Shown here: positions 5,322-56,193 of the stretch, piece after piece | Numbering within the stretch: position 1 is the stretch's first letter | How the letters are laid out: each line of letters opens with the position of its first letter | The notes under the pieces: model-generated | Database searches by the model: none | What the model saw: the letters and a program-made list of their open reading frames with translations, nothing else | Told to the model about the DNA's origin: nothing | Position numbers and translations under genes: made by a program | Assembly (NCBI GenBank): GCA_948567375.1 | Contig: OX419760.1 | Span: 58,896,911-58,960,910, forward strand | DNA from: Lunularia cruciata | Taxonomy: Eukaryota; Streptophyta; Marchantiopsida; Lunulariales; Lunulariaceae | Direction of reading: 5' to 3' | DNA length: 64,000 bases

Positions 5322-5747
5322 TGTAACAATATGGAGTTAAGCGACAAAGTTAGTAGGGCTAACAAAGTAACAAATAAGACAAATTAGCCTAGAATATTCA
5401 AGAAGTACCAAGGAAGCTTCTTGTGGAACTTCTCAACTAGCTTAGCTTGCACCTCAGGTAAGTAGTTTCTAGATGGAAGCTTCTAGAAGCTTTCAACTAG
5501 CTTAACTTGCATGCCAAGTAGGTGGCTTCTAGAAGAAAGCTTCTTGAGAAGCTTCTTGGTTAACTTGGCTTGCACTCCAAGAAAACGGTTCGAGGAAACT
5601 TCTTGAGAAGTTTCTCAAGGGCCTTGTATGCTACCTATAACTACCAAAGCCAAAGTTCATGTTAGGCATTCAGAGTTTTCCTTCATTCAAGTGTCCCAAT
5701 GTGAGCTTTCATTCTCTTATTTCTCTCTTTGGTCTTGGTCTTTTACA
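5322..5747 (+). repeat. 5' LTR of element A
   Basis: 426 bp, TGTAAC...TTTTACA, matching 10550-10969. It is rich in AAGCTTC/TTCTAGAAGC modules, including the GAA-GC-TTC-TA-GAA array near 5477-5489. A TATA-like region (CCTATAACTACC) lies near 5633, where the 3' copy has TATAAATA. Confidence 0.93.
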
Positions 5748-10549: not shown

Positions 10550-10969
10550 TGTAACAATATGGAGTTTAATGACAAAGTTAGTAAGGCTAACAAATAAGAC
10601 AAATTAGCCTAGAATATTCAAGAAGTATCTAGGAAGCTTCTTGGGAAGTTTTCTAGCTAGCTTAGCTTGCACCTCAAGTAAGTAGCTTCTAGAAGGAAGC
10701 TTCTAGAAGCTTCCAACTAGCTTAACTTGCATGCCAAGTAGATAGCTTCTAGAAGGAAGCTTCTTGAGAAGCTTCCTAGTTAACTTGACTTGCACTCTAA
10801 GAGTAGGCGGCTCGAGGAAACTTCTTGAGAAGCTTCTCAAGGGCCTTGTATGCTACCTATAAATACCAAAGCCAAAGCTCATGTTAGACATTCGGAGTTT
10901 TCCCTCATTCAAGTGTCCCAATGTGAACTTCCATTCTACTATTTCTCTCCTTGATCTTGATCTTTTACA
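10550..10969 (+). repeat. 3' LTR of element A
   Basis: 420 bp. It contains a perfect four-module heat-shock-element-like array, GAA-GC-TTC-TA-GAA-GC-TTC, at 10696-10713. A TATAAATA box lies at 10858-10865. Confidence 0.93.
10696..10713 (+). promoter_or_regulatory. Heat-shock-element-like array in LTR of element A
   Basis: Four alternating pentamers GAA/TTC with 2-bp spacing, about 145 bp upstream of the TATA box. This matches the nGAAnnTTCn consensus bound by heat-shock factors. Binding is inference; the pattern itself is directly visible. Confidence 0.6.
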
Positions 10970-25035: not shown

Positions 25036-25039
25036 TCTT

Positions 25040-25490
25040 TGTCACGCCATTTGTAGTTCCGCATCTAGATGCTCGGACACTGGAGTTCCAGTGATGGTAG
25101 TTAGAGTTATTCTAGCTGTTTCTCAGGGACTACTTTCCGATGGTTAGATTTCGTGTTCGGGGTATTGACTTCACGGTAGGGCCCACCGTCACTTTGCACC
25201 GTTTGCACCATCAAGTGTGCCGTCAGCGGGACCGTTAGGGTTTCAGGGCTAGCTCGAGTCTAGGGGGTATAGTTTCGAAGTGAGCTCTAGAGAGCTCACT
25301 TCTCTGATGTTGAGCCTTCGAGTTCCTGGCTATGGTGGACAGAGGCCGGCGAGCGTCACCTGGATTCTCTATGCTTGAGTGGGTGTGGCTTGACTGTAAT
25401 CAGTGCCTAGTTGTTGGCAGTTTATAGAGTGACAGATCAAGTATTGATCTGAGTTGAGTTGAGTTGAAAGTGTTAAGCAATCTGATTACA
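25040..25490 (+). repeat. Terminal repeat A1 of element D
   Basis: 451 bp, matching A2 (34208-34657) with few differences, which suggests a fairly recent insertion. It contains a TTTATAGAG box near 25419. It starts at the insertion junction and lacks the B sequence that precedes A2. ATCAGAGAAG just beyond its end (25490) resembles the core of a Met-tRNA primer site. Confidence 0.9.
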
Positions 25491-26635
25491 TCAGAGAAGT
25501 GAAGTCAGGGGGAAATTGGGTGCAAGAACGTTGAGTGTTGGTGGTATCTCCAAGCTCGGTGGATTGTGGTAGCTCGATTCAGGTTCTATGTTTCCCTAGT
25601 GTGCAGAAGCTCGTGTAGTTGATGCAAATTTGGCAGTTAGGCGGACGGTGTGCGGAAGCGCTGGCCAAATTTCGAGCAAAGAAGGAGCAATTTTTGAGCA
25701 GTGTTGTGATTTTGAGCTCAGGAGGTGAAGGCAGGACCAATTTGCTGCAAGTTGGGCTCAGAAAGTGAAATTGAAGGTGGAGTTGGAAAGCTCTTCTCAT
25801 GAAATTGTGATTTGGAAAAACCCGTTTTGTCAATTTGGCTCGAGTGGAAAGTTAGCGGGGGATTCGGAGGCTTCGAGGCATAGGGCTGTGGGCTATGAGA
25901 GGCTACGAAGGCTACGAAGGGCCAGAAGGGCCAGCAAGCCAGCTTGCTGGCGTGAGGCTAGCTAGTTTAGTGTAGATCTTGGTCATTGGTTGGCAAAATC
26001 TGCCTTTCTTGCTAGATTGTGCGCAACAAGGTTTGACTCCTAGATCTCTTGTTCCTAGACTGGTGCCCTAGCCAACTGGTCCACCTTCACTTGTTGTCAT
26101 AGTGACTGTGCCACTGTTATCTATACACATGTAGCTTTGGCTAGGAGAGGCAGTTTGATCCCATTCTTGGTGATCTTGGTAGCTTAGGACTTAGATACGA
26201 ACTACTCTTATGTCAAATGCCAAATGGCGGCAGAGTCAGTCCCGTGTTGTGTTATGAGATGGAGGGTTTTTGTTTAGATTTCTTGTGATTGGATCCCCTC
26301 CATTCTCTGCTTCCTGTTTGTGCACCACGTTTGTATGAGGTGCCTTGACTTTTGAGCGTTGGTGCTCTGGTGTGCTCTCGGTGGTGAGGCTGGAGTGATG
26401 ACCAGTCAGACTACCTTTGTTTCTCTCCGGTGAGGCAGGAAGTGATGACCTGCAGACCGTGAGAGTGCGTGTTATGATGGCAGGTTACAGGTTGCCCTTC
26501 CCCTAGTGTAGTTATCTTGGTTAGAGTTACATTAGTGGGTGGTGTCTAGTTGGTGTTGGCACTTGGTGGGGCACTTGCAGTTGCGACTTGCGGTTGCAGT
26601 TGGTGGTTCGGGTTTGCTGTTGGAGTTACGTGGTC
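25491..26635 (+). other. Leader of element D
   Basis: 1.15 kb without a conserved reading frame, collinear with the leader of copy D0. It holds short GGCTACGAA and GGCCAGAAG repeats around 25898-25950, and an AGCAAGCCAGCTTGCTGGC palindrome-like stretch near 25931-25950. Confidence 0.65.
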
Positions 26636-28650
26636 ACGACGGAGTTCTTTGAAGATTCCAGAGGAGTTAGCCATGCAGTACGCAATGGGTTTACTCGGAG
26701 TGGTACTCGGTATCAGCCTGTATCTCAAGTCCCAGTGAGGGAGGAGATTGACTCTGAGTTGGAGTTCGACACAGGAGCTGATTCAGTTGAGAGTGCACTT
26801 GGTGTGTCCGCACCGTTGTTGTGGGACATGGACGAGATTTATGGGGCCTCCAAAGGCCCTAGGCGTTACTCTGGTATAGTGGGTACCATTGAGTTGGATG
26901 ACTTCATCCAGGAGTTTGATAGTTGGTGTGATCTGCAGCAGATGCGGAACTTGACTTTGTTCACACCTTTCATGGCATGGAAGGGGTTGTTTCAGCACTT
27001 GGAGGGTCCACCGATGGACGACTACCATGAGTTCAGGAGAGCTCATTTGGAGGAGATTGAGTTATGGAGACAGTATTGGTCTCCTCACTATGTCTCTATC
27101 ACTTCAGGCTCGGTGGCCAGGAGTAGATCGGCTGTACCTATGAGTTCTAGCTCGAGTAGTGTGGGTGGAGCTAGTGGAGGTGCACTAGCTGGAGATAGTG
27201 CTACTACAAGTGGAGGTACCGCTGCAGGAGGTGGTGTGGTACCGGGGTTTAACCCCATGGTTGAGTTCTTCCTATGTTTGAGGCAGAACTACCAAGGAGT
27301 GCGGACTGACAAGCTGAGGAGCTTGTAGGAGTTCCAGCGGAAGGCTGGAGAGAGCCTACGCGAGGCATACACTCGCATGAGGCGGCTGATCAGTTTCACT
27401 CAAGGAGTTACTGAGGCCCAGGTAGTCCAGTTTTGGTATGGGATACTGGACAGGGAGTTGCGACGTAGAGTTCGTGATGCTATGTTGTTGCAGGCTACTT
27501 CGCCCACTTTGGCAGTAGTCTTTGGTTTGGCTGAGCGTATTGAGCTCAACATGGTGGAGGAGAGAGTGGTGACATCTGGATTTGGTAGGGAGACCTCATC
27601 CACGATTGTGACTTCTTCTAGAGTGCAGCAGAGTGCACCACGCCCAGTTGGTTTTCGAGGACAGGGTGGACAGCCCAGATCCTATGGAGCGAGTGGAGGG
27701 CCTAGTGGAGTTAGACCCTTACCCTCATTTTCGGGTCAGCAGCAGCCAGTGAGTGGTGGTGTTGCTTGTTGGACTTGTGGTGGACCTCACCATAGGAGAG
27801 AGTGTACTCAGGGCAGCGGACCTGATACCTCTGGTGCATCACAGCCAGCACAGAGGCAATGTGAGCACTGCCATAGATTTGGTCATACTAGTGACCGGTG
27901 TTTTGACCTACACCCGGAGTTACGGAGTGGTAGGGCTGCTATGACAGGTAGTAGAGGAGCTCCATTTCATGGAGGACGAGGTGGTAGAGGTGGTGGTAGA
28001 GGATCTACACCTAGTAGGGGTGCAGTACTTGCCCTTACTTCTGACACAACTATGGCTACTCGGATTGAGCAGTTGGAGCAGAGATTGGCTAGTATGGCTA
28101 TTGCTCATAGGAGATCAGATTCAGGTGCTGAGGCTTCCACCTCATATGCTGGTGATAGAGATGCTTTGGACTTCATGTGCGGAGCAGCACAGGTGGATGC
28201 ATCTGCAACAGTGACTAGGAGTGCAATACGTGCTCCAGAGCCTAGAGGAGCATCAGTGGAATTGGACCCACAGAGAGGAGAGGTTGGGAGACAGGTCAGA
28301 CTTCTCCAGTCTTTCACGCTATCTGAGGCATTGCAGACGACATCCATGGTTCCTAGACGTCCCAGTGCAGGTGTGGTAGGTGGTGATGGAGTACATGATG
28401 GACTACCTGCTAGTCAGCCACCTACTACTACACAGACTGAGTCTAGCATGATGTTGGGGGCGGCTCAGCTGATTATGCGGCATCCTTTATTTTCAGCCAG
28501 TGACATGTTTACATTGGGAGTTGACCCAGCCCCAGTGTTTCGGTTGGCTGCCACGTTGTGTGAGAGTAGGGATGGTGCAATTCCTACTACTAGAGCAGAG
28601 GTGGTTGGTAGTGGAGCTGACTTGGTTGAGGAGCATGGGATCCGTTCAGC
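26636..28650 (+). pseudogene. gag of element D
   Basis: N-terminal structural part of the polyprotein. The family ATG (seen in copy D0) is ACG here at 26636-26638. Visible features are the conserved block DFIQEFDSWCDL, a Ser/Gly-rich linker, a capsid-like SLREAYTRMRRLISF segment, then two CCHC-type knuckles: CWTCGGPHHRREC (about 27764) and CEHCHRFGHTSDRC (27861). RGG-rich sequence follows the second. A single TAG at 27326-27328 interrupts it; CAG fits the context. It would assemble particles and bind the element RNA. Confidence 0.85.
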
Positions 28651-29150
28651 GACCAGTGGTTTATGGCAGGCAGCAGCGGCTAGACTGGAGGAGTTGCCAG
28701 CTAGACCGGCCTTTGAGAGAGCGCGGTTTACACCTGGTGTTGTCTTATTGGATAACCAGAGGGGGATCTTTTGTTTGGTAGGACCTTCAGGGAAGGTCTA
28801 TACACCACAGAGAGTCTTGTTAGACTCTGGTGCGCAGCCCCTTATGGTGGGGAAGGCTGCAGTTGTTGGTCTGGAGTTACGGAAGACCGATGTGGAGAGG
28901 TGTCCATTTCAGATCCAGACATCTCTTGGTGGTGGTTCGACACAGTACATCACACGTGGGGAGCTTGTTGTCCAGGTTCAGCCTGGTCATCCGACTGATA
29001 GCTCAGTGGTGAGAGCTCAGGCTATTGCGACGATAGCTGAGTCATATGATGTGCTAGTTGGGGGAGCAGTGTTATACCCTATGGGTTTCAGTATTGACTA
29101 TTGGGAGGAGACAGCCTCTTATAGACCTGGTTGGCAGTCTGGTGAGGGAT
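28651..29150 (+). pseudogene. Aspartic protease of element D
   Basis: Continues in the same frame as gag. LLDSGAQPLMVG, with the catalytic DSG at 28823-28831, and a later YDVLVGGAVLYPMG that fills the place of the flap/ILG region, are typical of retropepsins. It would cleave the polyprotein. No stop occurs within this part. Confidence 0.8.
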
Positions 29151-29509
29151 GGGTATGTCGCCTACCAGTACGCTTCAGTAGTGGCAGTCTTGGCTCACTA
29201 CAGTCCGGGACCATGGCAGCATCAGTTTTGGCTTTCAGCGGTGCAGTTACTTGGCCTGGTGACTTGTTAGAGGGGAATGCCCATGCAAAAGATACTCCAG
29301 TACTAGAGGAGATCACTCGGCTATGGAGTACGAGTGGGATTGTTCCATCCACCTTGGATGTTCCATTGTGGAGTTCAGAGGAGGCATTGCAGCAGCATGC
29401 AGATCAGTTGGTGCAGCAGGCTTGGAGTGGAGCCTTCGTACCATCAGGGGATGAGTGTGAGGATGAGCCTCCAGAGGCGATTGCTTTGACACCTCTGGAT
29501 ACCACACTC

Positions 29510-30520
29510 ATTGCTTGGCATTATCCAGTAGAGGGGATATGTCTATTAGAGTTGTTTGGTGGGATCATCACCGGACTAGCTGCGGTGTTACAGGCGGGTA
29601 TCCGAGTACAGAGGTACTTGTATGTAGAGAGAGATGAGACTGCTAGGCGAGTCTCTCTACATCATGTGGCACACTTGGCCTATCGGTATCCGGAGTTATT
29701 ACCGATGTCAGCAGTCAGAGGTTACCAGAAGGCTTACCAGGAGACATTTCCTTACTGGGGGCGCATGACCTAGAGAGACATGGGCCTATTCACTTGGTGA
29801 TTTCTGGATGGCCATGTCAGGGACATACACGTGCGGGCCGCGGTTTGGGTCTTCAGGATCCTCGTTCTGGTGTGTTTTGGGAGATGTTACGGATACTACG
29901 ACATCTCCAGGTTCATCAGTCTTTCTCCAGCTTACCTTTTGGATAACGTTCCATTGATGGGTGATTCTCGCACTAGAGTGGTGGCGAGTACACATCAGGT
30001 CCATTCTTGGATGGGACCTGCTGTATTGTTAGATGCAGCCAGAGTGGGATCACGGGCTCATCGTCTTCATCTTTGGTGGACAAACCTCTTACCCAGAGAG
30101 GTTCTACAGCGTGCTTATGATGGGATTCAGCGACTGGACCACATTCTTGTTGATGATATCTTGGATGTTGGGCGTCAGTCTCAGACAGTGGTAGTGGCTG
30201 ATAGGTCACCCATGGCAGTGGTGAACCTAGTTGGACAACCTAGAGCTGCATTTCCCACACTCATGAGTTTCCCAGGCTCTCATGCTTTTTGAGAGGGAGG
30301 ACCTGGACTTGTTTGGGACTCACAGTTATAGCAGTTGGTGGAGCCCAATGCTGATGAGAGAGAGCGGGTGATGGGTTTTTGCACCGGTATTACCGCTGTT
30401 CCAGCAGTGTCAGAGGCATCCAGGCGTCAGGTGTTAGGTCAGGCTATGGACCTGAACTGTTTGACCTGGATTGTGAGCCTTGGTTTGGCAGAGCAGCGTA
30501 GGATGCGCTTGATAGGCATC
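29510..30520 (+). pseudogene. C5-cytosine DNA methyltransferase domain embedded in the Gypsy polyprotein
   Basis: Lies between protease and RT. In order: motif I LLELFGGIITGLAA (29543), an acidic motif II YLYVERDETARR, motif IV with GWPCQGHTRAG (PCQ at 29812-29820, the catalytic Cys), then DPRSGVFWEMLRIL, motif VI as LLDNVP (29936; most families have ENV), a motif VIII-like RLHLWWTNL, then motif IX/X DERERVMGF and LGQAMDLNCLTW (30350-30475). The order is canonical, not DRM-rearranged. Two compensating frameshifts (about 29755 and 29925), a TGA (30290) and a TAG (30329) inactivate it. It would methylate cytosine in DNA, possibly the element's own cDNA. Confidence 0.85.
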
Positions 30521-30970
30521 ACCACTCGGACACTTGTGAGCCCTGTGCCTATCGAGACGATTCAGGCACATGCTGGGGGCGATGGACCGAGTGGACATGG
30601 TATTCTTGGGACACATCCAGTAGCTACTAGGGAGAGTGGTCTACTTGGAGTCCATCCAGGTGAGCGTGGGCTACTTGGATTACACCCTTGGTCCACATGG
30701 GATGCAGCCAGAGGACGTATGGAGCTTGCAGCCAGAGTGGAGGGAGTTTTTCACACAGAGGTTGGGACCTCTAGTGGTCGGGAGCATGACACCATTGCTC
30801 CCAAGGGCCCAGTATAGCAGCCAGTCAGTACGTCTTCCACTCCTACTACAGTTACAGAGGATACTTGGGAGCCAGATCTTGGACCCAAGCTTACTGGAGA
30901 GGAAAGACGGAGGGTTTGGAGGTTCTTGAGGAGTCACACGAGTTGTTTTGCCTTCAGTATGAAGGATTTG
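30521..30970 (+). pseudogene. Linker of element D with short His-Pro repeats
   Basis: Same frame, between the methyltransferase and RT. It holds three repeats of an (I/L)LG(T/V/L)HP motif at about 30600-30690. A TAG at 30815 is followed by open sequence leading into RT (TGEERRRVWRFLR). Function unknown; the repeats may be a flexible spacer. Confidence 0.6.
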
Positions 30971-32330
30971 GGTGCTCTAAAGGGACCTGGTATACGGATT
31001 GAGCTGACTAGCGACACACCTGTTTTCCGACGTCCTTATCGATATAGTGAGATGGAGAGGACATTGATTCAGAGCCGGAGTAGTGACTTTTTTGAGGCTG
31101 GTTTGGTGGAGATTTCACATGGAGAGTATGCATCAGCGACAGTGATGCCAGCCAAGAAGGATATGCATGGCAACTATACAGATAGGCGGATGTGTGGAGA
31201 CTACCGTCCTATCAACCGACAGACCAGGGCTGATCGGTATGCCATGCCTACACCGGAGGAGATTTTTGATGCGATTGGGCATGCAAAGGTCTTCAATACT
31301 TTGGATCTACGAGCGGGATATCATCAGTTGCCAATCAGGGAGGAGGATAGGTCCAAGATAGCATTTTGGGCTATTGATCCTCACGGCAAGGATGTGTTAT
31401 ATCAATGGAGATTCTTACCATTTGGGTTGAAGAATGCTCCTGCTGAGTTCCAGAGGGTCATGGATAGGATCCTAGCTGGACTAGATTTTGCTCGGTGCTA
31501 TATTGATGACATTTTGGTGTATAGCACTACTGTGGAGGAGCATGAGAGACAGTTGTTGGAGGTGTTTGAGAGGTTGAGATCTCATGGACTCAAATTACAT
31601 CCTGGGAAGTGTAGGTTCTTCCACGAGCAGGTTGAGTATTTGGGTCACACTATCTACCCCGGAGGACTTGGTGTTCAGCAGACCAAGGTAGAGGCTATTG
31701 CACGTATTCCTCGGCCTACAGATGTGAGCACAGTGCGAGCATTCCTTGGGTTGGCGAACTTCTATCGCCGCTATGTTAGAGGATTTAGTGCCATTGCCAA
31801 GGCCTTGACGAAGCTGACCAAGCTTACACAGGAGTGGTGTTGGGGAGATGAGCAGGAGAGAGCTTTTGTAGAGCTCAAGGAGAGGTTGACATCTGCTCCT
31901 ATTTTGAGGAGACCGATCAGGGGACGACCATTTCAGGTTCACACTGATTGGAGTATGTTGGGGCTTGGAGCGGTGCTCACCCAACATGATGATGAGGAGA
32001 AGGAGTTTGTGGTGGCCTATGCTAGTCGCTCCAACAATTCAGCGGAGGCGAAGTATAGTTCATATGAGGGAGAGTGCTTGGCAGAAGTTTGGGCAGTAGC
32101 ACATTTCTGATGTTACCTATTTGGTAACCCCTTCACTCTCATCACTGATCATCAGCCGCTGAAGTGGTTGATGGAGTCCGACAAGCTTTCAGGGAAGCTT
32201 GCACGATGGGCTCTGATTTTACAGGAGTATGATTTCACGGTTGTTCACAGACCTGGAGTGGTGAACCGTGATGCAGATGGGTTGAGTAGAAACCCATGTC
32301 CCAGCCAGCAGGATCAGACCGGAGCACGTT
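30971..32330 (+). pseudogene. Reverse transcriptase and RNase H of element D
   Basis: RT blocks in order: FRRPYRYSEME, CGDYRPINRQT, LDLRAGYHQLPI, LPFGLKNAPAEFQ, YIDDILVYS (catalytic YIDD at 31499-31510), LGHTIYPGG and FLGLANFYRRYV. RNase H follows, with HTDWSMLGLGA, YEGECLA and TDHQPLKWL (the expected D, E, D acids). The frame is open except for a TGA at 32108. The minus-strand copy at 60257-60259 has CGA there, so the stop is a C-to-T change. It would make the cDNA and degrade the RNA template. Confidence 0.92.
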
Positions 32331-32599
32331 GGCATGGTGAGACAGATGAGGAGATGGTGCCAGGTTGGCATGCATCGGCCTTTCTGTGTATATTTGTAGA
32401 GACTTTGGTGATATCTCTCTCAGCGCATACAGGAGGAGTTATTGAGGTCACAGATCCAGAGAGTGAAGATATTGGTACAGTTCAGCGAGACATTCATGAT
32501 GATGTCTTAGTGATGGACTATCTTCGCACTGGTGTTGTGGGTGGCACAGTTGGGGCCAAGGAGAGAGACCGTGTTCTTCAGCGAGCCAGACGGTTCAGA

Positions 32600-33700
32600 T
32601 TGGAGGGTAGACACCTTTTGCGTGTATGGGAGGATAGTAGAGTGCGAGTAGTACCACTTCCATCACAAAGACCACAGTTGGTCCGTCATGCTCATGAGGA
32701 GCTAGGACATTTTGGAGTAAAGCGTACATATAGCTTACTCCAGAGTCATTATTGGTGGCGCGGTATGCAGACCGAGGTACAGCAGTTTGTTGCCAGATGT
32801 GTGGTTTGTGACCGAGTTAGAGCATCATTCAATGCTCATACGCCACAGTTACACCCATTACCTATCATGGGATTGGGTTACCGTTGGAGTTTGGACTTTG
32901 CCGGACCTTTACCGCTGACTGTGAGACATCATCGGTATGTTTTGGTGATGGTGGAGCACTTCTCCAAGTGGATTAAGTTGGTGGCACTTCCTGACAAGTC
33001 TAGTGAAGGGACAGCTTACTCGTTCATGGATCGAGTTCTTAGTCATTTTGGTGCACCAGCTGAGGTTTTGACTGATCAGGGTACAGAGTTCTTGGGAGAG
33101 TTTCAGGTCTTGTGTGACAAGGCTTTGATTGATCATCGTACTACATCCCGAGATCACCCTGAGGCAGATGGCTTAGCAGAGAGAGTGGTTCAGACGGTGA
33201 AGAGAGGATTGCAAAAGTATGGTTTGCAGAGAGGCCACTTGGGAGATTGGGATCTCCAGTTACCTTGGTTGGCCATGGGCTATCGGTTCAGCCGGCAAGC
33301 CTCCTTAGCATCCTTCTCTCCATACTTTTTACTCTATGGACGAGATCCAGATTTACCTGCAGCCATTCGTCTAGATGCTACTGTAGTTTTGGACTTGGAT
33401 GACCCCGATGTATGGATGAGCGCATGTTCTCAACGGGCAGAGATCTTTCGGAGAGTGATGCCGATGGCCTTTGAGAACTTGGCGATTGCTCAGCATAGAG
33501 ATACTTTACGCTATGCTACCATTCGAGGAGGAGGTTATAGACCCTCGATCTGTCGATTTCATCCAGGCGACTATGTATATCTACAGCAGACAGCACCGAC
33601 GACACTTGATGTTTCTACAGGCCGCACTATCTTGAGAGTGCGCGAGGTTTTGCCATCTGGAGTCCTTGTGTTAGAAGGACGTGATGGTGTTGTTTGGAAG
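32600..33700 (+). pseudogene. Integrase of element D
   Basis: HHCC zinc domain (HAHEELGHFGV ... CVVCDRVRA, about 32686-32820) and a DDE core with Asp at 32894 (LDFAGP), Asp at 33074 (TDQGTEF) and Glu at 33179 (GLAERVV). The last two are 35 residues apart, as in retroviral integrases. It is open throughout this part. A C-terminal DNA-binding segment runs to about 33700. This is the enzyme expected to have made the 4-bp target duplication. No tyrosine recombinase is present. Confidence 0.92.
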
Positions 33701-33931
33701 GATCATGTGCGCAATTGTGCGCCATGCCACCTCCCAAACATTGATGGTACTATGGACCCAAGCTTGGCACCTGTACGTGCAGGCTTGAGGTGTATGTTAT
33801 GTGGCTCTTCTGGTGGAGCTGCTACTATGTTAGTGTGTGATAGCTATTCGAGAGGATGGCATATGGCATGTATGACTCCTCCCCTCACGGTGGTTCCTCA
33901 GGGATAGTGGTTATGTCCTAGATGTACTTGA
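33701..33931 (+). pseudogene. PHD-like finger at the integrase C-terminus of element D
   Basis: CMLCG (33791), VCDSYSRGWHMAC, PPLTVVPQG and WLCPRC match the Cys4-His-Cys3 pattern of PHD fingers, including the RGWH and PP..VP signatures. The fourth ligand is Tyr rather than Cys, in this copy and in K. A TAG at 33905 splits off the last Cys pair; K has no stop there. PHD fingers bind histone H3 tails, so the finger may target integration as chromodomains do in chromoviruses. The targeting role is inference. Confidence 0.8.
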
Positions 33932-34100
33932 CCTATAGCTAGTTCATTCTTTATATGGTAAAGATTGCAGACAGGCGACTAACGATGGGGCTCCATAGCA
34001 CCCGGCCTCCTGATCTTTGCCCATTAGAGGGTATACCATATACTTAGAGTAGATGGCTATCTGGAGTTAGAGGGACCTAACCGCCAGCTAGGGGGGCAAT
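33932..34100 (+). other. 3' untranslated segment and purine tract of element D
   Basis: Non-coding stretch between the polyprotein stop and B1, conserved in K (20301-20455). It ends with GCTAGGGGGGCAAT (34087-34100), a purine-rich tract placed exactly where a plus-strand primer would sit upstream of B1. Confidence 0.65.
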
Positions 34101-34207
34101 TGTGGCACTTTACAATCTATGTATGACTTATGTGTGAGTTGTGCTTCTATAGTGTATGATGTTGACAGCGATGTATGTTGTGTAGCGATGTATATACGCA
34201 TGACAGC
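34101..34207 (+). repeat. Terminal repeat B1 of element D
   Basis: 107 bp, TGTGGCACTTTA...CATGACAGC. It is nearly identical to B2 (34658-34762) and lies directly before A2. It does not occur before A1 at the 5' end. Confidence 0.9.
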
Positions 34208-34657
34208 TGTCACGCCATTTGTAGTTCCGCATCTAGATGCTCGGACACTGGAGTTCCAGTGATGGTAGTTAGAGTTATTCTAGCTGTTTCTCAAGGACTA
34301 CTTTCCGATGGTTAGATTTTGTGTTCGGGGTACTGACTTCACGGTGGGGCCCACCGTCACTTTGCACCGTTTGCACCGTCAAGTGTGCCGTCAGTGGGAC
34401 CGTTAGGGTTTCAGGGCTAGCTCGAGTCCAGGGGGTATAGTTTCGAAGTGAGCTCCAGAGAGCTCACTTCTCTGATGTTGAGCCTTCGAGTTCCTGGCTA
34501 TGGTGGACAGAGGCCGGCGAGCATCACCTGGATTCTCTATGCTTGAGTGGGTGTGGCTTGACTGTAATCAGTGCCCAGTTGTTGGCAGTTTATAGAGTGA
34601 CAGATCAAGTATTGATCTGAGTTGAGTTGAGTTGAAAGTGTTAAGCAATCTGATTAT
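34208..34657 (+). repeat. Terminal repeat A2 of element D
   Basis: 450 bp, TGTCACGCC...CTGATTAT. Matches A1 (25040-25490) with few differences and sits between B1 and B2. Confidence 0.92.
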
Positions 34658-34762
34658 TGTGGCACTTTAGAGTCTATGTATGACTTATGTGTGAGTTGTG
34701 CTTCTATAGTGTATGATGTTGACAGCGATGTATGTTGTGTAGCGATGTATATACGCACGACA
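34658..34762 (+). repeat. Terminal repeat B2 of element D
   Basis: 105 bp, TGTGGCACTTTA...CACGACA. It forms the right end of the insertion, directly followed by target duplication TCTT. The matching B2 in K (13199-13305, minus) shows that this is a family property. Confidence 0.9.
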
Positions 34763-34766
34763 TCTT

Positions 34767-36181
34767 CAATATCCTATGAATGCTTTGGAAGGTAGGAAGA
34801 TCAAAGTGAATAGGTAAGGTAGACTCAATACCATATACCAATTGAAATGGAGAATATTTGGTGGAAGTCTTCATGGTTGTCTTATACTCCCACAAAATTG
34901 CATGAATCCTCTTGTCCCAATGATGTTTAGCCCTCTTCATTTTTGCATCTTAGGCCAACATCATGCACAATGTCTGATTGGTTCTCTTTGCTAAGCCATT
35001 GGAATTTGGCTTATAGGATGTAGTTACTCTACGTGTGATAGAGAAATGTCATAACATGGCTATAGTGATGCTTCCTATAAACTCTCCTCCTCTATTAGAA
35101 ACCAACTCCAAAGGGCATCCAAACCTAATGATAATGTGTTCTTAAAGAAATCTACCCATTTCATCTTCATTCTTGTACCTCGATGGTCTAGCCTCAACCC
35201 ACTTGGTAAGGTAATCAATAACTACCACAATGTACCAATTGTTCCCTAGGGTTCTATTGAAAGGACCTACAAAATCAATTCCCTACTTCTCAAAAGGTCC
35301 TAGCAAGGCAATTGATCTAAGTGGTGGAGTGGAAGTAGATTTTCTAGCAAAAGCTTGAAAAACATGACAAGTTTTGCAATAATCAAGATAATCCTTGAAA
35401 ATCCCTCTCTAATGATAACCTGTATCTAGAATCTTGAAAGTAGTCACCTTTCCTACAAAGTGTCCTCCACATACTAAGCCTTAATGAAACTCCTTTATGA
35501 GTAGGATAGACTCTTCCTTACCCACAGCTCTTTGAAGTAGACCATCTGCTCCTTGGTGAAAAAGAGTATCCTCCACCATTATGTAAGGTCTAGATCTTGC
35601 TGCAAGGGCCTTCCTCTTCCTAGCATACATTCCTTTTGGATAATTACCTCTTGTCACAAAATCCACAATCTCCTTGTACTCCATTGGAACCTCTTGAGTG
35701 ATTGAGATTGTCATGAGCTCCTCATCCAAGAAGGAATCATCCACTTGCTCATCTCCATCATGATCATAGGTCCTAGATAACAAATCAGCATTTGCATGTT
35801 TCTTTCTTGGCCTATCCTCAATGGTGTAGTCATACCCAGACAAGAGTATCATTCACCTTGCTAGCATCCCTTCCACATTAGGCTTGTTGAAGATGTACTT
35901 CAAAGCCTTGTGATCCATGACAATTGTGGCTTTCCCCCCAATCAAGTAGTGTCTAAACTTCTTGAGACCAAAGATCACTGCCAATCCTTCTCTCCCCATG
36001 ACAGAGTAGTTCTTTTCTACTAAAACTATCTGCCTACTAGCATAAGCTATTGAATGATCATGCCCATCTTGGTCTAATTGACTAAGAGTGCATCCTATAG
36101 TTATATTAGAAACATCAGTGTAGAGGATGAGTGGCTTACTCCAATCAGGCTTAGCAAGAATTGAAGCTACAACAAGGGATT
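34767..36181 (-). pseudogene. RNase H and integrase of element C
   Basis: Minus strand. Near 35852 is the RNase H/integrase junction (SGYDYTIEDRPRKKHANADLLSR), followed by a low-complexity acidic linker and a zinc-domain region at about 35500-35400. Integrase core fragments follow, then an ORF at 34940-34790 with HHWDKRIHAILWEYKTT and YSPFQLVYG, typical of the post-core region. The RT half lies at 54752-55454, separated by insertion B (duplicated GGATT). Broken by stops and frameshifts. Confidence 0.8.
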
Positions 36182-36593
36182 TGTAACAATATGGAGTTTA
36201 ATGACAAAGTTAGTAGGCCTAACAAAGTAGAAAATTAGACAAATTAGTCTAGAATATTCCAAAAGTATTTAGGAAGCTTCTTGGGAAGCTTCCCGGTTAG
36301 CTTAGCTTGCACCTCAAGTAAGTAGCTTCTAGAAGGAAGCTTCTTGAAGATTCCAACTAGCTTACCTTGCATGCCAAGTAAACAACTTCTAGAAGGAAGC
36401 TTCCCAGTTAACTTGGCTTGCACTCCAAGAAAGCGCTCAGGGAAGCTTCTTGAGAAGCTTCTCAAGAGCCTTGTATGATCCCTATAAATACAAGAGCCAA
36501 AGTTCATGCTAGGCATTTGAAGTTTTCCCTCATTAAGTGTCCAAATGTGAGCTTCCATTTTCCTATTTCTCTCCTTGGTCATGGTCTTTTACA
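36182..36593 (+). repeat. 5' LTR of element B
   Basis: 412 bp, TGTAACAATATGG...CTTTTACA. It holds a perfect four-module GAA/TTC array at 36336-36353 and a TATAAATA box at 36483-36490. Confidence 0.92.
36336..36353 (+). promoter_or_regulatory. Heat-shock-element-like array in LTR of element B
   Basis: GAA-GC-TTC-TT-GAA-GA-TTC, in the same position relative to the TATA box as in element A, although the spacer bases differ. That the pentamer phase is kept while the spacers vary is what selection on heat-shock-factor sites would leave. Confidence 0.6.
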
Positions 36594-44070: not shown

Positions 44071-44456
44071 TGTCTACATCAAGAGAACAATAGGAAGAGA
44101 GAGCTCAAAGACGAGCACTTCAGCGTGAAGAAGACAAACGTCCGAACGTCCCATCCTCTGTTGACCAAACCAAACGAGAGGCATTGGACTTTCAACTCCT
44201 TCACGAAGTGCAAGAAGCCCTGCAAGAACTTGAGCACAAGAAACGCAAATGCGGTTGGCAAGGCTACTTCACATCTCCCTCTTCGTCCAAGAAGAAGAAA
44301 GAATCGAGTGGGCAAACATATGCATTGCGGCCCAGTACATCGACTTCCCTTAGAGCTATAAAGGAAGTTGTGTCCTTGAAGAACTTTATTTGAGACAAGA
44401 CAACACGAACACTTACTGAAGACAAGTGTCAACATCTTTTATGAACGATTCCTTGG
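44071..44456 (+). other. Leader between LTR remnant and gag in element E
   Basis: About 390 bp without a clear gene. Short open stretches are present (for example one starting at 44184 with LQELEHKKRK), but there is nothing in the other copies to compare with. The expected primer binding site is not visible, consistent with a deletion removing the LTR end. Confidence 0.5.
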
Positions 44457-46387
44457 TTGTCCCGAAGGAATTTTGAAGAACCAATCGAAGGTGTTGATCT
44501 TGAATCTTCCACTCGGGTTGAAGTCAACACCCTCATAGCAGAAATTGTCAAAGAAGACCCCACCTTGAATTTGACAAATTGGAACCCCTGGGCTGACAAC
44601 ACGGTGTCAATACCAGCCAATCCTTCAATTCCGTCAAGTTCAGCACTACCTCAGCCGATCCTAGTGCATCAAACAATGACTTTGTTGCCTGTCACCCGAC
44701 ACGCCTATCAAAAGTACAAGGGGATAGAACAAGACAAAGACCTCGATGAATTCATCAAAGAATTTGAAGTCATCTCCTTTGCTAACAAGGAGCATGACTT
44801 GGCAGATCAATTGAGAATTTTCCCAAGTTTGCTCCAAAAGAAAGCTTGGAGCTGGTACACCCATGTGACCCAAAAGAGGTTTGTACCAGCAGATTGGGCA
44901 GACTTGAGAAACAACTTCCAGGAACAATTCCGGGAGGTTGATTATGACACGAGTGTCTTTGCGGCACTCAATGATTTAGACCGAGGCAAGAAGGAGAAGT
45001 TGAGATTCTACTCTGAGCGGTTCATAGCACTATTGAACCAAGTTCCCAAGCAATTGGGGGTGGTGGGTTACTCCGATGCCCAAGCCATTACCTGGTTCCT
45101 CGGGGGACTTTCACCAGAGATACGAATCTTTGCAAGGGAGAGGAATGTAACTTCCCTTGACAAAGTACTCAAACATGTCGCTAGTTATGAGACGACCCAC
45201 TCTCACTCTGCCGGTAACCGGAGAAATTGGGAGAAGAAAGGCAAGAAGCCCAGAAGGAGAGCTTTGTGCAATACATCCCCTTCTTTGGACGAGTCTTCCA
45301 TGTCTTCAAGCTCTTCTTTGGAATCCGAAGAATCAAAGCCAAGACAAGTCAGAAGACGTGGGGGCAAGAAACCAGTGACTCCTCCACCGAAGAGTGTAAA
45401 TAAGGCGGATACCAAGCTGGATGCCCTCATCGAGGAGTTTTTGGATTTCAAGATCCAGATGATTGGAGCCAAAGACAGAAGAAAGGCTCCCGCATTTGGG
45501 AGATCAAATGTATGGTGCACCGCATGTGGCAAATCAGGCCACGCAAACACAGAATGCAATACTCGTAATGCATTCCTGGTGCAACAAATTGATTGGGTTC
45601 CGGGATGGAACCAAGACAAGGACGAAGAGGCTGTGTACCAAACACAAGAAGTACAGCCTCAAGCGAGCACATTGTACCAAGGTTCGAGGTTTGGACCAAG
45701 GGAGTATAACCCCAATGCTCGTCCACAAAGACCACCGATGAGCAACCAGAATCACCCTCAAAATGTTACACCCAAAGCCTGTTATAATTGTGGCTCGATG
45801 GGACATTGGTCTCCAAACTGTCCCGAGCCAGGAAGGCAAATTGGGTACATTCCCCTATGCGGAAATTGTAAAGGATCGGGGCATACGGGCAACCAATGTC
45901 CCCACCCACCAAACTCGAAGCCGCCTGTAAAGTATGTACAAACCCCGTTGAGCATGCAGCAATTCAGCCAAAAGGGGATACTAATGTAAATTGTATCACT
46001 CTTGAGGAAGAAAGACCTCAAGAAGAGAGTCCGGCCTCGGAAGGAGAATGGCCGGACCTTGAAATTTTGAAAGTTGAGACACGCTCCAGCAAGAAGAAGC
46101 GTGATCCCAAAGAACTGAGTACGACCTCGTCGTCTTCAAGAAAGGCAAAGAGACTGCGCCCAAAGGCAATTCTTTCTGCCAAGGAGGAAAAGATCCTCGC
46201 AAAAGCCAAAGCTAAAGCCTTGCAGAAAGAACTAAAGGAGGCACTACTCAAGACTCGGGAATTGAGTTTGGAAGAGGAGACAAAGACAAAGTCTCAAGTT
46301 TTTCCGGCAGACATCCGATCCAAGCCGAGGTGGGCCAACCCGAGGAACCTTGAGTTAAGGTCATTAGCAAGCCCATTACCATTTTGA
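44457..46387 (+). pseudogene. gag of element E
   Basis: Open for 510 codons to 45989, then continuing after a frame change from 45896 to 46387. A capsid-like region (DLDEFIKEFEVISF, LLQKKAWSWY, LRFYSERFIALLNQ) is followed by a basic, Ser-rich linker. Three CCHC knuckles follow: CTACGKSGHANTEC, CYNCGSMGHWSPNC and CGNCKGSGHTGNQC (about 45514-45900). A Lys/Glu-rich C-terminal part is predicted helical. The true start is uncertain: the frame opens at a TTG and the first in-frame ATG is at 44677. The longest intact reading frame of E. Confidence 0.85.
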
Positions 46388-47433
46388 AGCGTCCTAAAGT
46401 CAAGAGGGAACATGGAGAGACTTCGGACCCAAAGCCGAAGGCGAAGACGGTCAAATTAGGAGGAGTTCTCCAATACGATATTGTAGCAGATCTGGCAGCC
46501 ACAAATGCCAGCATTACATTCAAGCAATTGTAGGAAGATAACAAGCTGTACAAGAGGCAGCTGAATTTGGCACTCAAGAAGGTGAGGTCGATGTCAAAGA
46601 AGGACCTGCCTGCTATCTATCATATTGAACAAGAAGATTTGGGATCTCCCGAGGTAGACGCGGAGATTGTAGGATGCATGATCACATCAAGACCCATTGA
46701 TTCTGCATCCAGTGTGAATGTCATGACCAAAGATATTGCAAATCGACTCGAGTATCACATGTTTGAACCAACACCCCGAGTGTTGAAGTTTGCAGACCAA
46801 ACCAAGAGATGGCCTTTGGGCATGTTGTCAAACATCACTACGATCATTGGAGGAGTACCTTTCAAGTTGAACTACATTGTGTTGTGACCAGTGACAAAGG
46901 CTGGTTACCCTTTGTTGATCGAAAGACCCTGGTTGTATAGCGCCCAAGTTGTGGTGGATTGGCATCAATAGAAGTTAAGATTCAAAGACATCTCATCCAA
47001 AGATTAGAAGCTGGTGACTGTGAGTTGGAGAAAAGTTCCCCACCTCAGGGAAACAAGTTTGTCGGAAGAGGAGGACGAATCCGAAGACTCATCGTCTTCA
47101 TCCTCGGATGAATCCAAAGACAAAGTCCAAGTTAATAACTTGGAATGCTATGAGGTGGATGTCAAAGACAAAGACCCATATGACCTCACCTCGGGTGAAC
47201 CTGACTTGGAGGAAGGGGATTTGATGGCAGCTCGCCTTGGGTTAAGCCAAGTAAGCCATGTTGAAGGCGTCATCAACCCCAATGACTGTCAAGATGTTTC
47301 ATTAAGTGAAGGAAAAGTTTTGAAAATCTCAAAGACAGTCACTTTGGAGAAGTTGGCAGGATACACTGCACTGTTTATAGAATTCCAGGATGTATTCGCC
47401 TGGTCTATTGATCAAATTCCGGGTATTCCATGA
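46388..47433 (+). pseudogene. Protease region and linker of element E
   Basis: The ORF at 46567-46887 carries a protease-like PIDSASSVNVMTKDI (D-S-A in the active-site position) and VPFKLNYIVL. A GYPLLIERPWLYSA stretch follows after a TGA. A long acidic linker rich in Ser, Asp and Glu (47041-47230) leads to the N-terminal RT boundary near 47433. A few stops. Confidence 0.75.
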
Positions 47434-48660
47434 GAATTTGGAGAACACCAGATTGATCTGGTTGAAGGTGCAGTTCCGGTTCGGCAGCGGCAATACCGCC
47501 TGAACCCAAAGTACTCGCTGTTGGTGAAAGATGAAATTGATAAGTACTTAGGGGCCGGAATCATCTTCCTTGTCTCAAGTAGTGAATGGGTTTCCCCCAT
47601 TGTCATTGTCCCAAAGAAGAAAATAGGGAAGATCCGAGTGTGCCAGGACTTCCAAAAGTTGAACGCAATCACAAGGAAAGATCATCATCCCTTGCCTTTT
47701 ACCGATACAATTTTAGATCAGGTAGCTGGTCATCCTTGTTATAGTTTTCTTGATGGACTTTTAGGGTACAATCAAGTATCCATTCGAGAAGAGGACAAGG
47801 ATAAAACTACATTCACGACCGATTGGGGCACTTTCACTTACAATCAAATGCCCTTTGGGTTGTGTAATGCTCCCGCTACTTTCCAGCGGATGATGAATTC
47901 AATCTTCAAAGATTTCTTGCGCAAATTTGGGGAAGTTTTCATTGATGACTTTTGTGTGTTTGGGCAAAGAGATGTACATTTAGATTACCTTCGCCAAACT
48001 TTTGAAAAGTGTCGTTTTGCCGGCTTGTCATCACACCCGGAGAAATGCTTCTTCACAATAAAGGAAGGAATTCTTTGGGGGCATTGGGTGTTGAGCCGAG
48101 GTATTGAAGTTGATGTTGAGAAGGTCAAGATAATCACAACTTTGGAATCCCCGAAGAACATCTAGGAGCTGAGTGCCTTCTTGGGACATGTCAGATATTA
48201 CAGACGCTTCGTGTCAAACTATGCAGTGCTTGCTGCACCGCTTACAAAGCTTCTGAAGAAATCCAAAGACTATCTGTGGGAAGCAAATCAAGAAGAAGCT
48301 TTCCAGGTGTTGAAGAAGAAGCTGGTTGAAACACCAGTTATGAGGGCCCCGAATTGGGACGTCCCTTTTCATGTATATGTGGACACTTTGTCCATGGCCA
48401 TTGGAGTCGTCTTAAGTCAGAAGGACAAAAAGAAGAAGGACTACCCGGTGTATTATGCCAGCCGACAACTTTTAGTTTCTGAAAAGAACTATTTGATGAT
48501 TGAAAGAGAAGCACTTGGAATGGTGTATGCCTGCAAGAAATTTTGCCATTATCTATTGGGGTACAAGTTTGTCTTCTATGTTGACCATTACGCATTGCAA
48601 CATTTGGTCTAGAAGGCAGATTTATCCGGGTGAATTGCAGGATGGATCTTGTTGTTACAA
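47434..48660 (+). pseudogene. RT and RNase H of element E
   Basis: Nearly intact: WVSPIVIVPKKK, CQDFQKLNAITRKDHHPLPF, FLDGLLGYNQVSI, MPFGLCNAPATFQRMM and VFIDDFCVFG (FIDD as the catalytic box) at 47521-48165. A single TAG (48163) separates this from GHVRYYRRFVSNYA and RNase H (HVYVDTLSMAIGVVL, ERBEALG-like EREALGMVYA). Sequence type is Athila/Tat. Few lesions, consistent with recent insertion. Confidence 0.9.
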
Positions 48661-48779
48661 GAGTTCACGTATACTGTACAAGTAAGGAAGGGAGCTTCGC
48701 ATTGAATGCGGACTTCCTGTCCAGGTTAGAAACTCAAGACTAGGAGTGGGAAATTGACAATCGGACAAAGAGTTGTATC

Positions 48780-50100
48780 ACTTATCAGCAATGTGAAGTA
48801 TGAGGTATGTAGCTGAATATCATTATCTGCATACTCTCCATTGTCCTGAGGGGATGGACCCGGAACAGCGGGCAGTCTTTCTTAGGAAAATGGGGCCGTA
48901 CCAGCTTAAACACAACATTTTATTTAAGATGGGTGAAGACGAAGTACTTCGGCAATGCTTGGAGTCATACAAAGTAGGAGGAGTGATTGAATCTTTACAC
49001 TCTGAAGCATCGGGAGGACACTATGCTCTGAAGAATACTATAAAGAAAATTCTTTTTGCAGGGTATTGGTGGCCTACAATGTACAAAGACGTGCATGCTC
49101 ATATTCAAAGCAGTGATGCTTGTCAGAGAACGAGGAAGCCGATGGCTACTTCTCAATGGCCTTTGAGACCAATTTTGCCTTTGGCCCCATTTGAGAAATG
49201 GGGGATTGATTTTGTGGGTCCCATTCAACCAGTGACCCGAGTCACAAGAAAGTGATACATTTTGGTTTGTACTGACTATGCTACCAAGATGGTTGAAGCT
49301 GAAGCAACTCGCAGAGATGATGCTGAAATTGTGGCGGAATTCTTCTTTCAAAACATCATCTCCCAATATGGGTCTCCTCTGGAATTGGTCAGTGACCGAG
49401 GAACACATTTTTTTGAACTCTGTAATGGAGGCGTTAACCAAGTACTTTCAGATTAAACATTGGAAGACGACTCTTTATAACCCAAAAGCAAATGGCTTAA
49501 TGGAAAAAGCAAATGGGTTACTTTGCAAAATTTTGAATAAGGTGATTGTCAATTATACCTATGACTGGGATACAAAATTACCAGCCGCAATGTGGGCATA
49601 TCAAACAATAGAAAAGATTACAACCAAACAAACTCCATACTTCTTGACATATGGCTTGCATCCCATACTGCCAGTTAAATTTGAAGTACCAACATATCGG
49701 GTTCTTTGCAAAGAACAAATGTCGGAAGAGGAAAGTCAGGATCTTCGGAGTCATCAACTGATGTGGTAAGAAGAGAAAAGAGACAATGCAATGCAAACCA
49801 CAAAAGAAGTACAGGCACAAAGGAAAGTCAGGCACGATAAGAGAATCAAGCTTGTAAATGTACATGAAGGGGATTTGGTTTTGTTATATGACAATCGCTA
49901 AATATTTTTTCTAGGCAAGTTGCATTTGAGATGGATGGGTCCCTATCAAGTTCTTCATCTTTATGAAAATGGGTCCATGCAGCTTGTAGACTTGGAAGGT
50001 AATCCTTTTGCCACTCGAGTAAACGGTGGAGAGTTCGGAGATATTGGACCATAGACTCGGAAGTTTTTAAGACACCCGAGGTCTATATTTGCGAGGACGC
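48780..50100 (+). pseudogene. Integrase of element E
   Basis: Zinc domain with HSEASGGHYAL and CQRTRKP (ORF 48800-49255), then WGIDFVGPIQP (first Asp), SDRGTHFF (second Asp, about 49400) and YNPKANGLMEKANG with the expected Glu (about 49500). The C-terminal part (VHEGDLVLLYDN-like, RWMGPYQVLHL near 49935) ends before the purine tract. Broken by a TGA at 49253, a frame change near 49425 and further stops. Confidence 0.85.
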
Positions 50101-54394: not shown

Positions 54395-54746
54395 TGTAAC
54401 AATATGGAAATAGAGACAAAGTTAGTAGGCCTAACAAAGAAGCAAATAAGAAAAATTAGTCTAGAATATTCCAAAAGTATCTAGGAAGCTTCTTGGGAAG
54501 CTTCTGGGCTAGCTTAGCTTGCACCTCAAGTAAGTAGCTTCTAGAAGCTTCCAACTAGCTTACCTTGCATGCCAAGTAAACAACTTCTAGAAGGAAGCTT
54601 CTTAAGAAGCTTCTCAAGAGCCTTGTATGATCCCTATAAAAACAAGAGCCAAAGTTCATGCTAGGCATTTGGATTTTTCCCTCATTCAAGTGTCCCAATG
54701 TGAGCTTCCATTTTCCTATTTCTCTCCTTGGTCACAATCTTTTATA
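54395..54746 (+). repeat. 3' LTR of element B
   Basis: 352 bp, about 60 bp shorter than the 5' LTR through internal deletions. It ends CTTTTATA where CTTTTACA is expected. TTC-TA-GAA-GC-TTC modules remain at 54539-54551. Confidence 0.9.
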
Positions 54747-54751
54747 GGATT

Positions 54752-56184
54752 GCTTGAGCTCCTCAAAAGCTTTCAGAGCCTCCTTGATTTCCAAAATCAC
54801 CATATAATCTACACCCTTCTTCACACAGATGGGCAATGCATAAGCCTTGTTGGAAAATGAGAAGATGAACCTCCTATAGTATCCAACCATCCCCAAGAAT
54901 TGGCATAACTTTGTCAAGCTTGAAGGGAATGGAAGGTCTGAGATTCTCCTCACCTTCTCAAGATCAACTGCTATTCCATCCTTGGAGATGATGTGCCCCA
55001 AAAGTAGACCTTCTTCACATCCAAAAATGCACTTCTCTGGGTTGAGTGATGCATTTGCCTCATCCAAGCATTGCAAGACTTTGATTAGGTACTCAAAGTG
55101 CTTCTCCTTGCTCCCATAGACACAAAAGTCATCAATGAAGTCTCTCACAAATTTCCCAATGAAAGGTTCAAATACCTTGTTCATGAACCGATGGAATGTG
55201 GCTAGAGCATTGCAAAGCCCAAAAAGGCATGACCTAGAAAGTGTAAGTTCCCCAAGGTGTGGTGAATGTGGTGAGTTGTTCATGCTCAAGTGCAATCTTG
55301 GTTTGGTTATATCCACTATAACCATCTCCAAAATTGTACCTCTCATGACCTGCAACCTTCTCCAAGATCTCATCAATGAATGGCAATGGGTAGTAGTCCT
55401 TCTTGGTAACAACATTGAGCTTCTTGTAATCCACACATACCCGAAGCTTGCCATTCTTTTTCTTCACGATGACAATTGGAGACACCCATTCTGAATTCTC
55501 TACCTCAAAGATAAATCCAGCCTCCTTGAGCTTATCAATCTCCTCCTTCACAACCAAAGATATTGGTGGGCTAATGCGACATTGCTTTTGGCGGATTGGT
55601 CTTGCATGTGACTCCACCTCTTTCTTGTGCTCCTCCAAGGTGACTTCCTTCAAATCCTTGTAATTAAAAGCAAACACATAGATGAACTTGCAGAAAATCT
55701 CTTCAAATCTCACCTTCTCCTCCTTGGTAACATTTGGGTCATACTTGAGGGTAGCTAACCTTCTCTCTACCTCCTCAAGTGTCAATGGTGATTTGTTTGG
55801 GTCCTTCAAAACCTTTGGCTTAGGTGCAAAATCCATAGCACACAAAGGATACACATCTATATCAGATTCAAATTCATCCTCCTCCGTGGAAGTCTCCTCT
55901 TCCATGCTCTTGTCCACACCTAAAGCTCCTTCTTCAGAATCTGATTCCCAATAATCAAAAGATGATGTATCTGAATGTGAAGTGTTGGTGGTGTTAGTCA
56001 CAAGAATTGTGACTCTATGGTTTGATAGCCCAATCCTCAAGTACCCTTTGTGCCATCGATCAGTTGTGCGTGCTGCTCTCAACCATGGCCTCCCAAGAAG
56101 TAAGTCATAGCTTGAATCCTTCAAGACTTGGAAAGTCATGAGATTTTGAACTCCTATAACTAAAACTACCACTTTATCCATCAC
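54752..56184 (-). pseudogene. Protease end and reverse transcriptase of element C
   Basis: Minus strand. The ORF at 56184-55234 continues the gag frame after a single TGA (56196-56194). It has SSYDLLLGRPWLR (end of protease), an acidic linker, then RT: WVSPIVIVKKKNGK, CVDYKKLNVVTKKDYYPLPF and YSGYNQTKI. A frameshift near 55240 leads to FGLCNALATFHRFM, DFIDDFCVYG (FIDD box) and GMVGYYRRFI. Ends at the insertion of B and resumes at 36181. Typical Athila/Tat RT. Confidence 0.88.
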
Positions 56185-56193
56185 CCCTATTGG

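Follow-up and report, generated by a model that had tools for sequence, protein, structure and literature searches.

Why would a parasite carry the kind of enzyme that is used for silencing parasites? Element-borne cytosine methyltransferases pose this question, which arises here from a decayed Ty3/Gypsy-type element at positions 25040-34762 of a 64,000-nt window (the whole stretch of DNA analysed), in which a C5-cytosine methyltransferase sits between the protease (about 28.8 kb) and the reverse transcriptase (RT, about 31 kb). Because the same family occurs in Marchantia, a tractable land plant, the question can be tested there, and the placement of the enzyme before a leaky-type stop yields a testable prediction on dose and packaging.

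Architecture of the element

The coding parts, the repeats, the polypurine-tract-like motif and the end of ORF1 all lie on the plus strand. A Gag region with zinc knuckles (26525..28300, right edge approximate) occupies the ORFs 26525-27328 and 27329-29773, with an in-frame stop at 27326-27328; the relatives P0219 and P0223 align to the window from 27242 onward, and by eye the region resembles the Gag of the Marchantia protein P0242. Alignment to P0242 also places the aspartic protease LLDSGAQPLMVG at 28740..29110 (approximate edges). The Pfam scan of the window's open pieces matched neither Gag nor protease, and both were assigned from relatives, among which Asp_protease_2 scored above its cut-off in P0219 and below it in P0240. 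Reverse transcriptase and RNase H follow at 30818..32230 (RVT_1, 5.3e-31; RT_RNaseH_2, 1.5e-27; in-frame stop at 32108-32110), then the zinc-binding and core parts of the integrase at 32660..33160 (Integrase_H2C2, 7e-19; rve, 4.2e-12) and a PHD finger at 33791..33889, truncated by an in-frame stop at 33905-33907, whose Pfam match (7.2e-4, 20 bits) falls below the cut-off of 24 bits. A PHD-like domain was present in 86 of the 120 matches listed from an integrase-PHD search that returned 363 proteins in all. The domain order Gag-protease-RT-RNase H-integrase, with an integrase of the DDE type, is that of Ty3/Gypsy elements; a tyrosine recombinase, as expected of DIRS elements, was not detected by Pfam in the main open pieces, the integrase being instead of the rve type.

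The repeats are arranged differently from ordinary equal LTRs at both ends, which are ruled out by a single repeat at the left and three at the right. Self-comparison revealed that A1 (25040..25488), which begins TGTCACG, is copied in A2 (34208..34656) with 97.8% identity, and that B1 (34100..34205) is copied with 95.6% identity in B2 (34657..34762), which finishes CACGACA. The resulting order, A-coding-B-A-B, constitutes split direct repeats and is the one given for DIRS elements in the Fig. 1 legend of PMC5890265. The termini TG...CA, together with a 4-bp duplication (TCTT at 25036..25039 and again at 34763..34766), are as in Ty3/Gypsy LTR retrotransposons, although a target duplication of only 4 bp is modest evidence. 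The B1/A2 junction is a palindrome, GACAGCTGTC (34202..34211), which occurs once in the window, and a polypurine-tract-like motif, GCTAGGGGGGCA, precedes B1 (34087..34098).

A second DNA copy, the contig L038, contains the same palindrome once, at the corresponding junction, and an equivalent polypurine motif, GCTAGGGGGGGCA, at the same place, while its second A and B copies lie off the contig. This contig measures 9285 bp, and its ends overlap by 127 bases, indicating a circular assembly path. It carries a eukaryotic-type retroelement, yet is filed under uncultured cyanobacterium and binned in the metagenome-assembled genome AVDCRST_MAG81. The candidate primer-binding site of the window, a match of only seven bases (ATCAGAG at 25490), was judged not convincing and is missing from the corresponding part of L038; the Rfam and tRNA scans gave no matches.

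In both DNA copies, ORF1 codes for Gag, protease and, last, the methyltransferase, and an in-frame UAG ends it. In the window this codon (30815-30817) follows the methyltransferase at a distance of about 100 codons and opens the sequence UAG CAG CCA (30815..30823), a candidate leaky stop in the CAR-YYA context, after which ORF2, from the RT onward, goes on in frame. L038 has UAG CAA UCA, with the same in-frame UAG between an open ORF1 of Gag, protease and DNMT and an open ORF2 of RT, RNase H, integrase and PHD finger; its identity to the window is 46-63% across the four pieces of the methyltransferase, and 64-65% for RT and integrase. The available text of PMC2754532 states that CAR YYA is essential for readthrough in the tobamovirus TMV. 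Among 32 relatives with protease and DNMT only, 17 proteins stop 56-180 residues past the domain, as ORF1 would, and 15 within 25 residues, but these ends are weak evidence because many of the relatives are fragments or gene predictions. In the parts of the literature examined, no description was found of an enzyme of this kind placed last in ORF1, ahead of a leaky-type stop.

Adjoining the right end of the element, the stretch 34800-36200 on the minus strand holds Pol-like open pieces of another Gypsy element (ORFs 35481-35852 and 35853-36197, judged by eye). Elsewhere in the window, a tandem repeat at 63323-63926 has a 107-bp unit in 5.7 copies with 90% matches, and two repeats at 5410-5554 and 10631-10836 are alike, with a period of 60 and a richness in GAGAAGCTT.

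Detection, type and condition of the methyltransferase

The sequence-only reading had proposed a C5-cytosine methyltransferase inside a Gypsy polyprotein and named a methyltransferase-profile search as the check. Pfam DNA_methylase matched the PCQG piece alone (29758-29943; E 5.3e-6, 26.5 bits with a cut-off of 22), the remaining pieces of the window giving no individual Pfam match. A family profile, built from eight relatives with the window sequence excluded and applied to each piece in its own frame, revealed four pieces that tile one model in order: motifs I and II at 29537-29770 (model 3-69, 94.3 bits), motif IV with PCQG in another frame at 29713-29931 (model 65-132, 91.5 bits), motifs VI (DNV) and VIII (RLH) with the target-recognition region at 29930-30289 (model 135-254, 166.2 bits), and motifs IX and X at 30332-30544 (model 269-325, 94.2 bits). 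The proposal was thereby borne out, as was the canonical motif order (I, II, IV, VI, VIII, IX, X) claimed between protease and RT. Shuffled versions, 1000 per piece, reached at best 6.4-9.4 bits versus 91-166 bits for the real pieces, and of the window's 1233 open stretches with at least 30 residues, the four that hold methyltransferase pieces scored E 3.4e-27 or better, with the next at 0.15.

A protease-methyltransferase search returned 40 proteins, including 21 from Marchantia, 2 from the liverwort Calypogeia fissa and 3 from Sphagnum. The family profile found the methyltransferase behind the protease in 33 of them (including 18 from Marchantia, 2 from Calypogeia and 2 from Sphagnum), the other seven comprising the protease region only. 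The two controls exclude chance resemblance, and the 33 relatives together with L038 rule out the one-off insertion of a piece of host gene that the earlier reading had named as its own refutation; with the Pfam match added, the likelihood of either explanation is negligible. The same relatives, in liverworts and Sphagnum, support the land-plant affinity suggested for this Gypsy element. Two further decayed Gypsy elements in the window, one at 44445-49250 on the plus strand (Gag, RT, RNase H and integrase zinc-binding pieces) and one at 54735-57732 on the minus strand (Gag, protease and RT pieces), yielded no methyltransferase piece with the family profile.

By sequence, the element enzyme is of the DNMT3 type and not DRM-like. 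The assignment follows from DNMT3A and DNMT3B being the closest solved structures in sequence searches with two relatives. For P0242, DNMT3A (1.7e-8) and DNMT3B ranked best, followed by HaeIII (0.001), 4onj (0.0026) and C5 entries of the tRNA type, that is DNMT2-type (0.018-0.094); for P0219, the order was DNMT3A (5.4e-6), 3B and 3C, then HaeIII and 4onj. The entry 4onj is one that we take to be a DRM. A DRM origin is ruled out by these scores and by the canonical motif order, in agreement with the initial view that the enzyme is not rearranged. The ranking also bears on the idea that the enzyme methylates RNA, either genomic RNA or primer, and thereby aids packaging or priming. C5 enzymes of the DNMT2 branch do act on tRNA, but the sequence is closest to DNMT3A/3B and the DNMT2-type entries reach only E 0.018-0.094, so that methylation of RNA instead of DNA appears very unlikely.

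Catalytic residues were counted in 123 of 162 domains, those shorter than 250 model positions being excluded. The catalytic Cys was present in 122 with one gap, the Glu of ENV in all 123, and the second Arg of RxR in 121, and this near-invariance speaks for selection on enzyme activity in the relatives. Known C5 enzymes almost always have Pro in the PCQ of motif IV. Of 104 full-length domains placed otherwise than in the window's type (enzyme behind protease), 69 have Glu in its stead, and all 104 keep the catalytic Cys; within the window's type the replacement is seen in 2 of 19.

The window copy itself is dead, as evidenced by frame changes, stops and the loss of two near-invariant catalytic residues. 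The reading frame of motif I, that of 29510, is left for motif IV and resumed for motifs VI-X, so the two frame changes described earlier as compensating frameshifts are there; a pair of in-frame stops separating motif VIII from motif IX, at about 30290 and 30330, had gone unmentioned. Likewise, motifs VI and VIII are present in order as had been read, but both are degenerate: DNV lacks the Glu of ENV, and RLH lacks the second Arg. Outside the methyltransferase, Gag, RNase H and the PHD finger each carry the in-frame stop given above. Open-frame relatives nevertheless exist, namely L038 as DNA and P0242, P0240 and P0257 as proteins.

Relatives, placements and known systems

The 120 matches listed from the integrase-PHD search add Riccia, Klebsormidium, Closterium and Volvox to the hosts. 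Of 278 proteins collected, 162 contain the methyltransferase, in different placements: behind the protease or before the RT in 40 (the window's type), behind RT or RNase H in 76, before the integrase in 43 whose protein lacks RT and RNase H, and without a recognised neighbour domain in 3. Trees were sampled with 52 and 41 rows for the DNMT, 77 of 167 for the integrase and 44 of 62 for the RT, the last comprising 28 of the 46 sequences of the RNase H-DNMT type and all 16 others. The motif I-II piece of the window groups with eight DNMT rows, five of them Marchantia or Calypogeia (99/98), and the motif VI-VIII piece groups with the same row set, at 99/99 (9 rows) in the 52-row tree, which leaves out P0217, P0193, P0168, P0184, P0195 and the motif I-II window piece, and at 100/100 (7 rows) in the 41-row tree. 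The window integrase groups with Calypogeia and two further rows (100/99), and three Klebsormidium integrases fall inside its clade (37 rows, 99/96). Judging by the family and these groupings, the element probably comes from a liverwort or some other bryophyte.

These trees broadly follow the placements. In the DNMT tree the second type, DNMT-integrase proteins included, is monophyletic (33 rows, 96/91), as is the RNase H-DNMT type in the RT tree (100/99, with 28 of its 46 rows sampled). Support for a clade of the window's type reaches only 94/77 in the 52-row DNMT tree, and the 41-row tree leaves this type unresolved, so that it may be a grade. Agreement with the integrase tree is rough: one RNase H-DNMT row stands beside the window's side (84/61), and the opposite side holds four RNase H-integrase rows, few such proteins showing what precedes the RT. 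The presence of one enzyme clade in two placements suggests domain mobility inside a retroelement, of which no earlier description was found in the parts of the literature examined.

In the 41-row tree the 31 sampled element enzymes, among them a piece from the window, group as a single clade (100/99) relative to outgroups that comprise nine virus enzymes, several of unusual composition, and a DNMT3A fragment, with no host plant DNMT3; that fragment grouped with the virus enzymes (94/75). The virus enzymes are nine of the methyltransferases from a viral-contig scan with the query A3 (37 loci) and served as outgroups only; neither P0219 nor the window integrase found a match there when used as the query. 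Separate captures in two element lineages, from related host DNMT3 genes, may have taken place, but are argued against by the single clade that the 31 element enzymes form versus the virus enzymes and the DNMT3A fragment. Tentatively, and at less than even chances, one ancient capture by a green-plant Gypsy lineage may be envisaged, with the DNMT3-type enzyme kept catalytically intact, shifted once within the element between a position at the end of ORF1, ahead of a leaky UAG, and one between RNase H and integrase, and carried into land plants, and with integration of a circle at the palindromic junction. If true, this would overturn two published views, namely independent methyltransferase acquisition in the Klebsormidium lineage (PMC5890265, in the text available) and the absence of methylase-encoding transposons from land plants such as tracheophytes (Morozov et al. 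2019, PMC6338049, likewise). The bryophyte copies in Marchantia, Calypogeia and Sphagnum already qualify the latter statement. A literature search of titles and abstract beginnings, with subscription papers, preprints and supplements outside its scope, returned no liverwort or moss elements of such kind.

The closest known system is KnitGypsy-Dnmt3 of Klebsormidium nitens (de Mendoza et al. 2018, PMC5890265), which according to the available text likewise combines Gypsy domains with a non-rearranged DNMT3-type enzyme in the polyprotein and, per the Fig. 4 legend, shares the DIRS-like repeat layout. The architecture that the sequence-only reading called unusual is thus a rare combination, but not a new one. 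KnitGypsy-Dnmt3 belongs to a charophyte, whereas the window element has its affinity with land plants (liverworts, Sphagnum); in a comparison by text only, its enzyme is placed in the Pol ORF (PMC5890265), whereas that of the window ends ORF1. The catalytic conservation of this kind is seen in the window's relatives but not in the window copy, with its two lost residues. Taken together, the window element extends a known rare kind, familiar from algae, to land plants, since KnitGypsy-Dnmt3 is alike and the window's integrase clade includes the three Klebsormidium integrases, which are not necessarily those of KnitGypsy-Dnmt3.

Gypsy elements of the green lineage in which the enzyme precedes the integrase (for example Haematococcus P0143, Cymbomonas P0221 and P0229) share the enzyme clade (100/99), RT, integrase and mostly a PHD finger, but differ in having the enzyme after RT or RNase H and in belonging to separate DNMT and RT clades, with an integrase tree that is not clean. 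REM1 of Chlamydomonas (Perez-Alegre et al. 2005) is reportedly likewise of Gypsy type, with DIRS-like split repeats and an integrase of the DDE type. Captured C5 methyltransferases are also described for the retroelements SymbioDIRS-Dnmt3 and SymbioLINE-Dnmt (PMC5890265, in the text available), which are DIRS and LINE elements of dinoflagellate hosts; DIRS elements have a tyrosine recombinase in place of the DDE-type integrase of the window, and SymbioDIRS comes in two DIRS structures with differing domain orders.

Proposed working of the element and methylation marks

Self-methylation of the cDNA, which the sequence-only reading had named as a plausible role, is also our best guess at what the enzyme does. 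The putatively leaky UAG, seen in two copies of which one is dead, would have the enzyme made in Gag amounts and the RT in smaller amounts, and an enzyme encoded before the leaky stop would be packaged into particles along with Gag. Inside these particles it would methylate new cDNA, so that the insertion would arrive pre-marked and be kept silent by the maintenance enzymes of the host. Plus-strand priming at the polypurine tract before B would yield B-A-coding-B-A, the ends of which could join into a circle, and opening of this circle by the integrase at the palindromic B/A junction would restore A-coding-B-A-B. The evidence for this circle route comes from the window, a dead copy, and L038; the circular assembly of the latter is no proof of a DNA circle, because collapsed repeats explain it equally well. 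An objection to such a route is that Gypsy integrases are ordinarily believed to act on linear ends. As a whole, the scheme of a Gag-PR-DNMT3 ORF1, a leaky UAG and an RT-RH-IN-PHD ORF2, with packaging of the enzyme, methylation of cDNA and the circle route, is somewhat more likely than not. As to activity, the available text of PMC5890265 reports de novo CG methylation in yeast for two SymbioDIRS-Dnmt3 enzymes and no methylation for the KnitGypsy enzyme, a result called inconclusive there since human DNMT3B also failed.

The main target of the enzyme might instead be the DNA or chromatin of the host. In this view the PHD finger would steer integration and the enzyme would mark the landing site, so that new copies reside in tolerated, methylated chromatin. 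The PHD-like domain ending the integrase polyprotein, weak in the window and recurrent among the matches listed, fits this idea, as does the position of the enzyme next to the integrase in the other lineage. However, the window's type encodes its enzyme in ORF1, apart from the integrase, and the available text of PMC5890265 describes the methylome of Klebsormidium as plant-like even though such elements are present, albeit in fewer copies; an action mainly on the host is therefore considered unlikely. Catalytic conservation would fit any gain in fitness, including a shielding of cDNA from host defence or help to the host against DNA viruses, but to our knowledge no defence against unmethylated cDNA is known from bryophytes. 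Even though the latter idea has already been put forward (Morozov et al. 2019, PMC6338049, in the text available), a protective role of either sort seems quite unlikely.

Self-methylation of cDNA, the preferred reading, has left no visible trace in base composition, as the element is not CpG-poorer than its surroundings (0.475 versus 0.216 and 0.359 in the flanks). CHG methylation is a host mark in plants. In the repeat copies compared (435 bases of A, 108 bases of B), 13 of 14 substitutions are transitions, and 11 of these 13 lie in CG or CHG context, which holds 34% of C sites (p = 0.0003), pointing to host methylation after insertion.
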